Assembly: GCA_030271625.1 (NCBI GenBank)
Contig: JARXKN010000001.1
Location: 496,001-560,000 of the forward strand
Direction of reading: 5' to 3'
DNA: 64,000 bases
Source of the DNA: Patescibacteria group bacterium
GTDB lineage: Bacteria > Patescibacteriota > Saccharimonadia > Saccharimonadales > UBA4665
Under the pieces are notes generated by a model. The model was not told the origin of the DNA. It made no database searches and saw only the letters and a program-made list of their open reading frames with translations. Positions 9,034 to 32,842 of this stretch are shown one piece after another (the stretch's first letter is position 1; the number at the start of each line of letters is the position of its first letter). The translations under genes and the position numbers were made by a program.

Positions 9034-10624
9034 AGTTATCTGCTATTTCGTCTTCCAAGGTTTTACTTTGTTTAAATAGCTTGTCTAGTGAATTCTGATG
9101 TTTAGTTATTTGAAGCTGGAACTCTTCTGCCGTAATTGGCACATGTTTTATTTTGATATCGAAGTATTGGCCTGCGCTGAAACTATAGTTTTTCCGTGCA
9201 ATTTCTTCGTAATTGAGCACCACCGAAAAATCTTCAATCTGATCGGAAATAAAGGCTTTACTGATCTGTTTTTCTTCGTCACGACTTAAGAGTGTCTTTT
9301 GATTCTTGCCATCTTTTATCTTAGTTCCCAGTTTAGATGCATCAACCAACACAACCTTTCCGGTGTTTGTCTTGTCAATGAAGATCACCGATACACTAGT
9401 TCCGGTAGTGGCAAAAATATTAGGCGGCATAGATACCGCACCTTTAAGCCACTTACTATCGATAAGTTTTTGACGAATCAACTTTTCGATACCATTTTGG
9501 GCTGTGATAAAGCCAGTGGGTACTACAACTGCTGCTCGACCCGTGTCTGAAAGACTAAAGATAATGTGCTGTATAAAGAGGAGATAGATTGCCATTTTAT
9601 CTTTATCTTTTTTGGGGATATTCGGAATACCAGCAAAGAACCGCTCGCTAACATTTGGTAAGTTAGAAACTATATCGTAGTCATCGGAGAAATCTAGTTT
9701 AAATGGAGGATTGCTTACAATATAGTCAAATTTTTTAGCAATGTGCCTAGGCTCGGTTATTGTATTGCCTTGTACGATATTGTCAATCGAGTGGCTAAGC
9801 CCATTCATGATAAGGTTTAAACGAAGGAGATTCGATGATTTTTGGGACATATCCTGTGAGTAGATAGAGCATTTATCCTGACCTATTTCATGAGCAATGT
9901 TCATCAATAGAGTGCCTGAGCCAGCCGCAGGATCGTAAACTGTGACATTAGCTGGTTGCTCGTCACCAACCAGAATCTCAGCCATAATCTTTGCTATAGA
10001 GTGCGGTGTGTAATACTCGGCATATTTACCGCCGCCATCTTTGTTATAGTCCTTGATCATATATTCAAAGAGTGTTGAAAAGAAATCAAAACCAGCATTA
10101 AGAATTTCATCGAGCTCAAACTTGCTATTAGCAAGTTTATTGATAATCTTACGTGCCGTCACATCGTGTTGTGACTTATCATTTATCGCATCTGCAATAA
10201 GTTCTTCTTCGAACAAACGAATTTCAGTATTTCCAGCAGTATGAACTGAAAAAACGTCAGAGTTATCTACCGCAATGTCGTTAAGTGTATTGTCTAATAG
10301 TTTTGCAAAACCACCATCATTTGATCGACTGAATAGGTTCTCTAGTAGATGCTCGGGTTTGAGATGAGCCGTCTTTGTGCCGATCTTGATCATTAGAAGA
10401 TCATACTTGTCAGAATCTAATTTTTTGAGGTCTTCGTATGTTTTCAAACTTTGGTCAAGTTTTCCAACCTCATGCAGGAATTTATCGTTTAGGAATTTGT
10501 ATAAGAAACTCTGAGTTACAATTTTATATTCATTCGCATCTCCGCCAAGTCCAGCGCTAGCACAGATGCCCTTGAGGTCGTCAATAAGTTGCTTTGCCTT
10601 ATTTGAAAAGTCTGTGTGTTCCAT
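9011..10624 (-). CDS. hsdM: Type I restriction-modification DNA methylase subunit
   Basis: A 537-residue N6-adenine methyltransferase of the HsdM family. The N-terminal HsdM helical domain covers about 1-150. The AdoMet-binding motif DPAAGSGTLLMNIA and the catalytic NPPF (in DYIVSNPPFKLDF) follow in gamma-class order. It methylates host DNA and forms the M2S core of the complex. Its start codon directly abuts the hsdR stop (TAA-ATG with no gap), and its end overlaps hsdS, so the three genes form one leftward operon. Confidence 0.95.
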   Translation of the reverse strand: MEHTDFSNKAKQLIDDLKGICASAGLGGDANEYKIVTQSFLYKFLNDKFLHEVGKLDQSLKTYEDLKKLDSDKYDLLMIKIGTKTAHLKPEHLLENLFSRSNDGGFAKLLDNTLNDIAVDNSDVFSVHTAGNTEIRLFEEELIADAINDKSQHDVTARKIINKLANSKFELDEILNAGFDFFSTLFEYMIKDYNKDGGGKYAEYYTPHSIAKIMAEILVGDEQPANVTVYDPAAGSGTLLMNIAHEIGQDKCSIYSQDMSQKSSNLLRLNLIMNGLSHSIDNIVQGNTITEPRHIAKKFDYIVSNPPFKLDFSDDYDIVSNLPNVSERFFAGIPNIPKKDKDKMAIYLLFIQHIIFSLSDTGRAAVVVPTGFITAQNGIEKLIRQKLIDSKWLKGAVSMPPNIFATTGTSVSVIFIDKTNTGKVVLVDASKLGTKIKDGKNQKTLLSRDEEKQISKAFISDQIEDFSVVLNYEEIARKNYSFSAGQYFDIKIKHVPITAEEFQLQITKHQNSLDKLFKQSKTLEDEIADNYEKLKYE

Positions 10625-22501: not shown

Positions 22502-22716
22502 GCGCCGACACTTAATTTAGATAATATATATTGGTTATCTAGAAACTATGATATTTATTACATTTCGGCCCAAACTAGTTGTATTACTTAACTAAATGGA
22601 GTATTACTAAAGTAAAATAAATATTAAATCGAGTGATGTGTAAGGCCACGAAGTAATTCCTGTATTTGGTCGCTTGGGAATTATTGAGCCAATAGCGAAA
22701 CCGGTAGTATGTCTCT

Positions 22717-22744: not shown

Positions 22745-25700
22745 ATGTACCGCAACCGCCTGTCGCGCCACATGTCCCGAATTAAAAACTCTTTAATTGC
22801 ATTATTATTTATTGGCACGCAGGTGGTTGCCCCTCTGGGCGTTTCAGGTATCTTCTTAGGCCACGCTGCGGCGGTTCCTGCCACAGGCTGCGTGAATGAT
22901 ACAGCCGGAGCCAATGACGTACCGGGACAAAAAGATTTAACCAAATTATGCGTTAATAACAATTCTGCTACGCAGATTTCTACAACATGGAACTGGGATG
23001 ATACCGGTACTAACGGAAGTAATACCTTAGATGCTTGTAATCTTTTTGATACTAATGGAAACGGACAAGCTGACTATGCTGTCTGTGTAACAACATCCGG
23101 AGATCCCGCACAGCTTCAGGCCACTACTGTTTATTCCTGTGGTGACAGCCGCGATGATCGCTGTACCTCACCCATCACTACACTTATAGTTCCGGCCGGG
23201 ACCGTGAGCTGTGCTGTCAGTCAGTCGCAGACAAACCCTTTCGATGCTTCGTTTGATACCCAAGGATCGTGCACAATCGCACTAAGTATCTTCGGCGCCA
23301 CCGCCGCTAACCTGATTGATGTGTGTTCTTATCCGTCTCAACAACCAAATTCTGACCCTTCGGACTGTGTGATTACGCAACCTAAATCGGGAAAGGTAGA
23401 AGTGGTAAAACATTTGGTACCCGCAACTGATAGTGGCTTCTTTAATCTACAGGTTGACGGAACAACCAAAGCAGCCAACGTACAAGACGGGGGCACTACA
23501 GGAGAGCAAGTTTTAGCCGCCGGAACGCACAGTGTTGGTGAAACTGCGGGCACAAACACTTCACTAGCAGCCTATGACTCAGCTATCTCATGTCGTGGTT
23601 TGAACGGTAATGGCGCCGTAATTGCTAATGGGACGGGTACTTCACTGGCGGGTGTACCGGTAGTAGATGGAAGCGATATTGTTTGTACTATTACTAACAC
23701 TCGTCAAACCGGCACAATCACCTTAGTTAAAAGCGTCACCGAAAACAATGGCGGCACAGCAGGGGTAAATGAATTTGGACTAACAATTGGCGGAACGGCA
23801 GTTAGTTCTGGCCAAGCAGTGCCACTCAATCCAGGTTCGTACGCCATTAACGAAGCTGGTAAAGCCGGCTACGCATTTGTAAGTATCACTGGTATTGGTT
23901 GTCCAAGTACGCTCGGCGCTAGTGTAACGCTCGCCGCAAATCAGAATATAACCTGTACTATTACCAACGACGATATTGCCCCATCGCTTACAGTCGTAAA
24001 GAACGTCACAAACGATAATGGCGGCACAGCTACGGCCGATAACTTCACTTTAAGAGTCAATAATACTCAGCTAAGCGGCGGCACGCTTTCTAATAACAAT
24101 CTTACCGATACCTATACTTACACCAACCCGTCTGCCAATGTAGCCTACGCCGCCAGTGAAGATAGCTTCAGCGGCTACAGCCCTGGAACTTGGAGCTGTA
24201 CCGATAACACCACGCATCAAAGTGTTGGCAACCCGGTTATGCTGGCTCTCGGTCAAAATGTAACTTGTAGCGTCACCAATAACGATAATGCACCGACCCT
24301 AACCTTGGTTAAGCACGTCACAAATGATAATGGTGGCGCCAATACTGCCGACCAGTGGACACTTAAAGCCCAGCACAACGCCGATACACCTGTTATAAAT
24401 GCAGCTGGAGCGCCCAGCAATAGCGGCACCGTTGCCACGACGACTACGACTCCAGTAACTGCCAACACAGCCTACGCCTTGACCGAGTCAGGACCAACCG
24501 GCTACGCACCGAGTAGTTGGGGTTGTACTGGAGGCGTATTAACAAATGGCGTCGTCACCTTAGGCGTCGGCCAAAATGTTACCTGTACGATAACCAACGA
24601 CGATATTGCACCTAAACTAACGGTAACCAAAGTCGTCAACAACGACAACGGCGGTACTCTAGATGCCAGCAACTTCCCGCTGTCTGTTATGGGCACCTCA
24701 GGCACAGTTCAGGTTACCAGTGGGACGCAGTACACCTTTAATGCTGGACAGTACACCGTCAGCGAAACCCAACAATCAGGCTACACACTACATTCGATTA
24801 CTGGCTGCTTAGCAAACGGATCAATCACGATGGTCGTCGGCGGCGTCTATAGCTGTACGCTCACCAATAACGATATCCCGGCAACCATCACCGTAACCAA
24901 AGTCGTCAATAACAACCACGGCGGCAGCGCCAAGGTAAACGACTTCACTCTTAAGGTCGGTAGTACGGCGGTCACTAGTGGCGTCAGTAATACCTTCGCC
25001 GCTAACCAACAGTACACCGTCTCTGAATTGGCCCAAGTGAATGGCTATCACCAAGACAGCCTCGTCTGCATAGACAATGCCACAAAAGCCGATCTTGGGG
25101 CTACATTCACCCCAACACTCGCCGAAAACATCAGCTGTACAATCACCAACAGCGATATCGCGCCGCAACTCACAGTCATTAAGCACGTTGTAAATGACAA
25201 TGGCGGCACAGCCAGCGCCAGTGCCTTCACCATGAACGTAACGGGCACAAACGTTTCAAGCGCTTCATTTAGTGGCGCCGAAGATCCGGGCACGACGGTG
25301 ACGCTGAATGCTGCCAGCTACAGCGTTAATGAGACAGATTTTGCGGGCTATGCTAAATCACTCGGCCAAAACTGTAGCGGCAATATAGCCGTTGGCGAAC
25401 AAAAGACATGTGTGGTTACTAATAACGATGTAGCCCCAAGCCTTACGGTTGTAAAAAAGGTTATCAACAATAATGGCGGTAACAACACTTCCGATTCGTT
25501 CGTAGTGAAAGTGAACGGCACCCAACTAACTGGTGGTACCCTCACGAATAGCAACCTGACTGATACGTATAGCAACCCAGGAACCACAGCTAACACCGCT
25601 TACACCGTCAGCGAAGACTCACCGACACCTAGCTACACCCAGACCAGTTTAGTCTGCAAAGACAATACTTCGAACAGTGTGGTTGCAAACCCAGTGTCGT

Positions 25701-31554: not shown

Positions 31555-31717
31555 GCTTTAACAATTTAAATATAAAGAGTGCGGTTAGAGATCTAGCTCA
31601 GTGATCCGCCAGCAGCCTGCAGCAATGTGTGGTGCTCCATCTAGTCCCGAAACCAGGGAAAGATATTTGAGTATTCTCTTATCCTTTCCCATGGCAACAC
31701 GGGGGAAGGATATTTTT
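31555..31717 (+). promoter_or_regulatory. metK leader, probable SAM-sensing riboswitch
   Basis: The leader contains mutually exclusive helices. The strand GGGAAAGATA (31656-31665) can pair upstream with ATCT and TCCC (31639-31648) or downstream with TATCCTTTCCC (31680-31690). If the upstream pairing holds, ATCCTTTCCC (31681-31690) is free to pair with GGGGAAGGAT (31702-31711), hiding the GGAAGGA ribosome-binding site and leaving a T tract. Upstream elements include a GCGG/CCGC helix (31581-31609) and an AGCA/TGCT hairpin (31621-31636). No SAM-I box was recognised; the AGTCCC...GAAA...GGGA core is loosely like SAM-III/SAM-VI. Class unassigned. Confidence 0.65.
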
Positions 31718-32842
31718 ATGTCAGACTTAAATAACGTACGACTTTTCACTAGCGAGAGCGTCTGTGCTGGTCATCCAGACAAAATTTGTGACGCCATTAG
31801 CGATGCCATTTTAGACGCTGCCTTAGCCCAAGACCCTAATGCCCGCACCGGTATCGAAACCGTCGCCGGCGCAAACAAAATTGCCCTATTTGGCGAAATT
31901 AAAACCTCGGCCGACTTAAACTACGAAAAGATTGTTCGTGCCAAAGTGGCCGAACTGGGGTACACCGAACCGGCGTGGGGCTTTAGTGGCGAATCCGAAT
32001 TTAGTAATGATATCCACCGACAATCACCAGAAATTGCTATTGGCGTTGACGCTGATGGCGCTGGCGACCAAGGTATGATGTTTGGCTATGCCTGTACCGA
32101 AACGCCAGAGTTAATGCCGCTGCCAATCGCCTTGGCTCATGCTCTCACCCGTAAAATTGATGCCGTCCGCGAGAGCGGGGAACTGGCCTGGTTACGACCT
32201 GATGGTAAGGCACAGGTTACCATTCGGTACGAAGACGATAAGCCGGTAGCAGTCGAAAAACTGGTAGCAGCCGTGGCCCACGACGAGACAGTTGCGGCCG
32301 ATCAAGTCCGCAGCGAGCTACTTGAGACCGTTGTGAAGCCGGTTCTGGCTCACTATCAGTTTGCCGTGCCGGCCGATACCGACATCATTATTAATGGCAC
32401 CGGTTTATGGCACATTCCCGGCCCCGAAAGTGACGCTGGCTTAACTGGCCGTAAAATTGTTGTCGATACTTACGGCGGTTATGCCCGGGTAGGCGGCGGC
32501 GCCTTTAGCGGCAAAGATCCGAGTAAGGTCGATCGTAGCGGTGCTTACGCCGCCCGCTATATTGCCAAAAATATCGTCGCTGCTGGTTTGGCAACTAAAT
32601 GTGAGGTGGGCCTAGCCTATGTTATTGGACAGCCATTACCGCTGATGCAAACGATTGAAACCTTTGGAACGGCGACCGTCAGTGAAACCGAGCTACATGC
32701 CTACAAAGACCGGCTGATAGACACTAGCGTTAAGGGTATTGTGACGAAGCTTGATTTGAAGCGACCTATCTATGGTCAAACGAGTGCTTATGGTCATTTC
32801 GGTAAAGCCGATTTGCCATGGGAAACGGTCGTCGCTATCTAG
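31718..32842 (+). CDS. metK: S-adenosylmethionine synthetase
   Basis: A 374-residue enzyme making S-adenosylmethionine from methionine and ATP. Family motifs are clear: GHPDKICDAISDAIL near the N-terminus, GAGDQGMMFGYA, and the GGGAFSGKDPSKVDRSGAY loop. Length and motif order fit complete MetK. The ATG at 31718 is chosen because GGAAGGA lies seven bases upstream and the conserved SESVCAGHPDK follows at once; an in-frame extension to 31601 runs through the structured leader. The leader suggests feedback by SAM. Several methyltransferases in the window (HsdM, ParB-MTase, 20750) need its product. Confidence 0.95.
   Translation: MSDLNNVRLFTSESVCAGHPDKICDAISDAILDAALAQDPNARTGIETVAGANKIALFGEIKTSADLNYEKIVRAKVAELGYTEPAWGFSGESEFSNDIHRQSPEIAIGVDADGAGDQGMMFGYACTETPELMPLPIALAHALTRKIDAVRESGELAWLRPDGKAQVTIRYEDDKPVAVEKLVAAVAHDETVAADQVRSELLETVVKPVLAHYQFAVPADTDIIINGTGLWHIPGPESDAGLTGRKIVVDTYGGYARVGGGAFSGKDPSKVDRSGAYAARYIAKNIVAAGLATKCEVGLAYVIGQPLPLMQTIETFGTATVSETELHAYKDRLIDTSVKGIVTKLDLKRPIYGQTSAYGHFGKADLPWETVVAI

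Follow-up and report, generated by a model that had tools for sequence, protein, structure and literature searches.

The metK leader of a Saccharimonadales bacterium belongs to the SAM-I riboswitch class

The SAM-I riboswitch is the described system closest to the metK leader analyzed here, sharing with it the helices P1 to P4, a pseudoknot between L2 and J3/4, conserved contact bases, a context of metK and methionine genes, and P1 as the switching helix. Two further classes, SAM-III (SMK box) and SAM-VI, also regulate metK translation in other bacteria; their folds differ from that of our leader, and neither matched it in an Rfam scan with E-values up to 10. With regard to expression platforms, Barrick and Breaker (2007, PMC2258182) described dual platforms of transcription and translation attenuation, as well as SAM-I switches whose P1 contains, and directly occludes, the ribosome-binding site. 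Our leader resembles the dual platforms in that a terminator-like hairpin adjoining the open reading frame holds the ribosome-binding site in its 3′ half, and differs from them in the weak A-U base of the stem and in a terminator activity that is only putative. From the SAM-I family in Rfam (RF00162) it departs in its CUAG:CUAG pseudoknot, a G at position 46, a score 0.8 bit below the gathering score, and a Shine-Dalgarno sequestor followed by a U5 tract. We found no open-access literature on SAM riboswitches in Patescibacteria, which gives the cataloguing of this leader a modest value.

The window, i.e. the whole analyzed stretch of 64,000 nucleotides, encodes at 31718-32842 (plus strand, as all features below) an S-adenosylmethionine synthetase (MetK) of 374 amino acids, with the Pfam domains PF00438, PF02772 and PF02773 all scoring far above cut-off and a Daviesbacteria protein as nearest named MetK (57%). 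The ATG (31718-31720) directly follows a run of T. A permissive Rfam scan assigned positions 31567-31669 of the leader to SAM-I (RF00162, 43.6 bits, E = 1e-8), in an alignment that spans model positions 1-108 of 108 and covers the full aptamer. Since the score lies just below the gathering score of 44.4, default Rfam annotation misses the leader. A family model (R1) scores it with 98.6 bits, the window sequence being among the 66 training rows of that model. The genome of 1.15 Mb carries one SAM-I copy; at 9991-10089, the family model has a low-scoring hit (15.9 bits, E 0.05) that is probably due to chance. The window further contains a c-di-GMP-II riboswitch (22633-22715, 56.5 bits, above cut-off) just 5′ of a gene for a surface protein of 2.4 kaa with SpaA/DUF11 repeats and a probable ATG at 22745. 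This riboswitch occurred in only five of the 93 family genomes, and the genome of the window encodes one GGDEF protein.

All parts of a SAM-I (S-box) aptamer could be located by the RF00162 alignment and an alignment of 66 relatives that includes the window sequence. The 5′ strand of P1 (31567-31573) pairs with 31663-31669; in aptamer numbering, the inner P1 pairs are A6-U98 and U7-A97, both invariant in the 66 sequences, and the outer ones are loosely conserved. The P2a/P2b arm (31579-31610) consists of P2a (31579 and 31581-31584 with 31606-31610; 99.7% pairing, two-sided changes at four of five pairs), P2b (31588-31590 with 31597-31599; two of three pairs) and an internal loop that carries G/A bases of a putative kink-turn. 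There, the UGA in the 3′ half of the loop and the opposite A are conserved, and the base before this A is U in the window versus G in most relatives. P3 with the ligand-contacting core GCAGCC...GGUGC (31611-31636) and the P4 hairpin UCCC-GAAACCA-GGGA (31645-31659) are likewise backed by conservation and covariation. The pseudoknot pairs CUAG at 31593-31596 with CUAG at 31641-31644 in 66 of 66 family sequences and, because it never varies there, is silent on covariation inside the family; sister families carry CUGG:CCAG or CCGG:CCGG, a compensatory exchange, and CUAG:CUAG is also found outside the family. Folding energy alone lends the aptamer no support, its sequence folding no better than shuffles (z = -0.4); what supports it is homology together with covariation. 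In the alignment, 94% of cells are paired as in SAM-I compared to 34-41% in slid controls, two-sided changes occur at 12 pairs compared to 7.3 in shuffles, and the covariation score was reached by none of 500 shuffles. A covariation test on related leaders had been proposed in the first-pass annotation, and the two-sided changes are spread over P1, P2a, P2b, P3 and P4. With the conserved positions that contact or surround SAM taken from PMC3764141 and their numbering assigned by hand onto the leader, A6, U7, G11, C44, A45, C47, U57, G58, C59, A87 and U88 are invariant in the 66 sequences. At position 46 (T. tengcongensis numbering; 31615 in the window), the window and four relatives have G, and the other 61 of 66 have A.

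From the 3′ part of the aptamer onwards, the leader can form two mutually exclusive helices, as had been proposed from the sequence. The switching strand (31656-31664, GGGAAAGAU), which belongs to P4 and the 3′ strand of P1, is complementary to 31681-31690 with one bulged base (31683) and would act as antisequestor; the earlier pairing of 31656-31665 with 31680-31690 holds with these slightly shifted limits. The helix thought to hide the metK ribosome-binding site, previously drawn as 31681-31690 with 31702-31711, was verified as a sequestor hairpin (31680-31712) in which 31680-31690 (UAUCCUUUCCC) and 31702-31712 form 11 pairs including one G-U, with the Shine-Dalgarno region in the 3′ arm (31702-31711). 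The sequestor reaches -17.9 kcal/mol (z = -4.9, 0 of 200 shuffles as good) and the antisequestor pairing -15.6 kcal/mol (z = -2.8, 3 of 200). When strands were swapped among the 66 relatives, both pairings became weaker, from -14.4 to -11.7 kcal/mol for the antisequestor and from -14.2 to -12.6 kcal/mol for the sequestor (0 of 2000 permutations as good in either case), which indicates that the two co-evolve, as the switching model requires. Nearly all family members carry AUCCUUUC...GAAAGGAU-(A)UUUUU-AUG 3′ of the aptamer. The upstream partner suggested for the switching strand, 31639-31648, stands in one half only: its CCC/GGG pairing is P4, whereas AUCU/AGAU, which does occur in the free-energy minimum of the leader, clashes with the SAM-I fold, which uses CUAG (31641-31644) as a pseudoknot strand and AUAUUU as the 3′ strand of P1.

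The best reading of these features is a SAM-I OFF switch for the feedback control of metK. When SAM is scarce, 31656-31664 would pair with 31681-31690, leaving the Shine-Dalgarno sequence free for MetK to be made. Upon SAM binding to the four-way-junction aptamer, P1 and P4 would hold the switching strand, and the freed 31680-31690 would enclose the Shine-Dalgarno sequence by pairing with 31702-31712, so that metK would no longer be translated. Since the hairpin is adjoined by U5, transcription may also stop just 5′ of the start codon, as in a dual platform. We infer SAM binding, the direction of control and its translational or transcriptional mode from the sequence. The minimum free energy of the leader (-47.9 kcal/mol) contains the sequestor hairpin without ligand, compared to -43.8 kcal/mol with the antisequestor forced; folding energies thus favor the hairpin in both states, and the choice would have to be co-transcriptional.

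This thermodynamic preference for the sequestor even without ligand speaks against the SAM-I reading, as do the G instead of A at position 46 and the score 0.8 bit below the gathering score. Nonetheless, the metK leader is almost certainly a SAM-I riboswitch that would shut off metK when SAM is plentiful, and it belongs to a long-known class and is not new in kind. The first-pass annotation had recognized a riboswitch in the metK leader, which the RF00162 match, the covariation and the MetK Pfam domains support, and had named SAM as probable ligand, a prediction with which the SAM-I match and the conserved contact positions agree. It did not recognize SAM-I, left the class unassigned and considered it loosely like SAM-III/SAM-VI or possibly new or divergent. 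A score somewhat below the Rfam cut-off and a short GGGA/TCCC core that can be spotted by eye might indeed suggest a new class or a relative of SAM-III or SAM-VI. The AGTCCC...GAAA...GGGA core is real, but represents P4 and its loop in SAM-I; the covariance-model search that the annotation itself recommended returned SAM-I along its full length, the SAM-I helices and pseudoknot were all found to be present and covarying, and SAM-III and SAM-VI gave no match at E up to 10, so that we rejected this explanation as extremely improbable. We give just as little credit to a plain sequestor or attenuator that works independently of a ligand, or to chance complementarity. Simple hairpins covering a Shine-Dalgarno sequence are common; the aptamer, however, with its contact bases invariant, is kept by all family genomes with metK that could be tested, and chance was rejected given a fold better than shuffles and member-specific pairing.

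Whether the platform acts mainly by termination, with hairpin 31680-31712 and U5 as an intrinsic terminator and Shine-Dalgarno occlusion as a secondary effect, is a more serious question. The T run that had been noted behind the helix corresponds to a U5 tract (31713-31717) between the Shine-Dalgarno sequence and AUG. Such a tract of at least five U is present in 58 of 66 riboswitch members (U5-7), whereas the 53 other genes of the window's own genome that have a Shine-Dalgarno sequence all lack it, a small control sample from simple ORF calling over about 364 kb. It is therefore not the usual spacer of this genome, as the only one of 54 Shine-Dalgarno genes to carry it is metK itself. Together with the strong hairpin (z = -4.9), this suggests that the sequestor may double as a terminator. 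A consensus terminator scan did not list the hairpin, owing to its A-U stem base and to its 11-nt loop, which exceeds the 3-8 nt allowed. These two features also argue against a mainly terminating platform, as do the Shine-Dalgarno sequence in the 3′ arm of nearly all members and sister genera that have the start codon in P1 without a terminator, and we regard this alternative as rather unlikely.

In genera of the same order, metK starts within or adjacent to the P1 3′ strand (AGAAAGGAAAGAUAUG) at 19 of 40 sampled loci; occlusion of the ribosome-binding site would there fall to the SAM-I aptamer itself, and no separate expression platform is present. Loci of this type belong to genus g46 (L214, L222-L225, L227-L230, L232-L235, L237, L238, L240, L244), g54 (L226) and g104 (L218), and also include L187, L191 and L192; in g46 members the conserved P3 pair G43-C59 is seemingly swapped to C-G. 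One might tentatively picture an evolutionary series of platforms within one class, in which a single hairpin of this lineage serves as Shine-Dalgarno sequestor and intrinsic terminator with the U tract directly before AUG, and a sister genus dropped the platform and placed the metK start in P1; we consider this possible, if on the doubtful side.

The SAM-I leader was found in six of six genomes of the genus and, at family level, in 65 or more of 93 genomes, 52 of them above the Rfam cut-off and 13 with sub-threshold matches only, and 207 of 393 genomes of the class have a SAM-I match. Among the 72 family matches, 57 sit 43-157 nt 5′ of metK. Five of six scanned matches located elsewhere precede methionine-pathway genes (Cys/Met metabolism PLP enzymes, homocysteine S-methyltransferase, cobalamin-independent methionine synthase), and the gene behind one had no Pfam match; a weak match of 26 bits on contig 2 of genome G035 looks like chance. 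Genera g20, g24 and g37 (e.g. G051, G062, G083) encode a MetK that is divergent (43-48% identity) and shorter (about 320 aa), and nonetheless retain the same SAM-I leader. We detected metK in 68 of the 93 family genomes, 63 of them with a listed SAM-I match. Four of the remaining five show the aptamer with the family-specific model (50-100 bits), and the contig of the fifth breaks off some 12 bases ahead of the metK match; apparent metK genomes lacking the riboswitch were thus an artefact of strict filtering in four cases and of a contig end in one. Default Rfam thresholds accordingly overlook part of the distribution, namely the 13 of 65 sub-threshold genomes and the four recovered by the family-specific model only. 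The SAM-I assignment removes the false lead of a new SAM riboswitch class; in this family of small genomes, the predicted feedback control of metK by SAM-I is close to universal.
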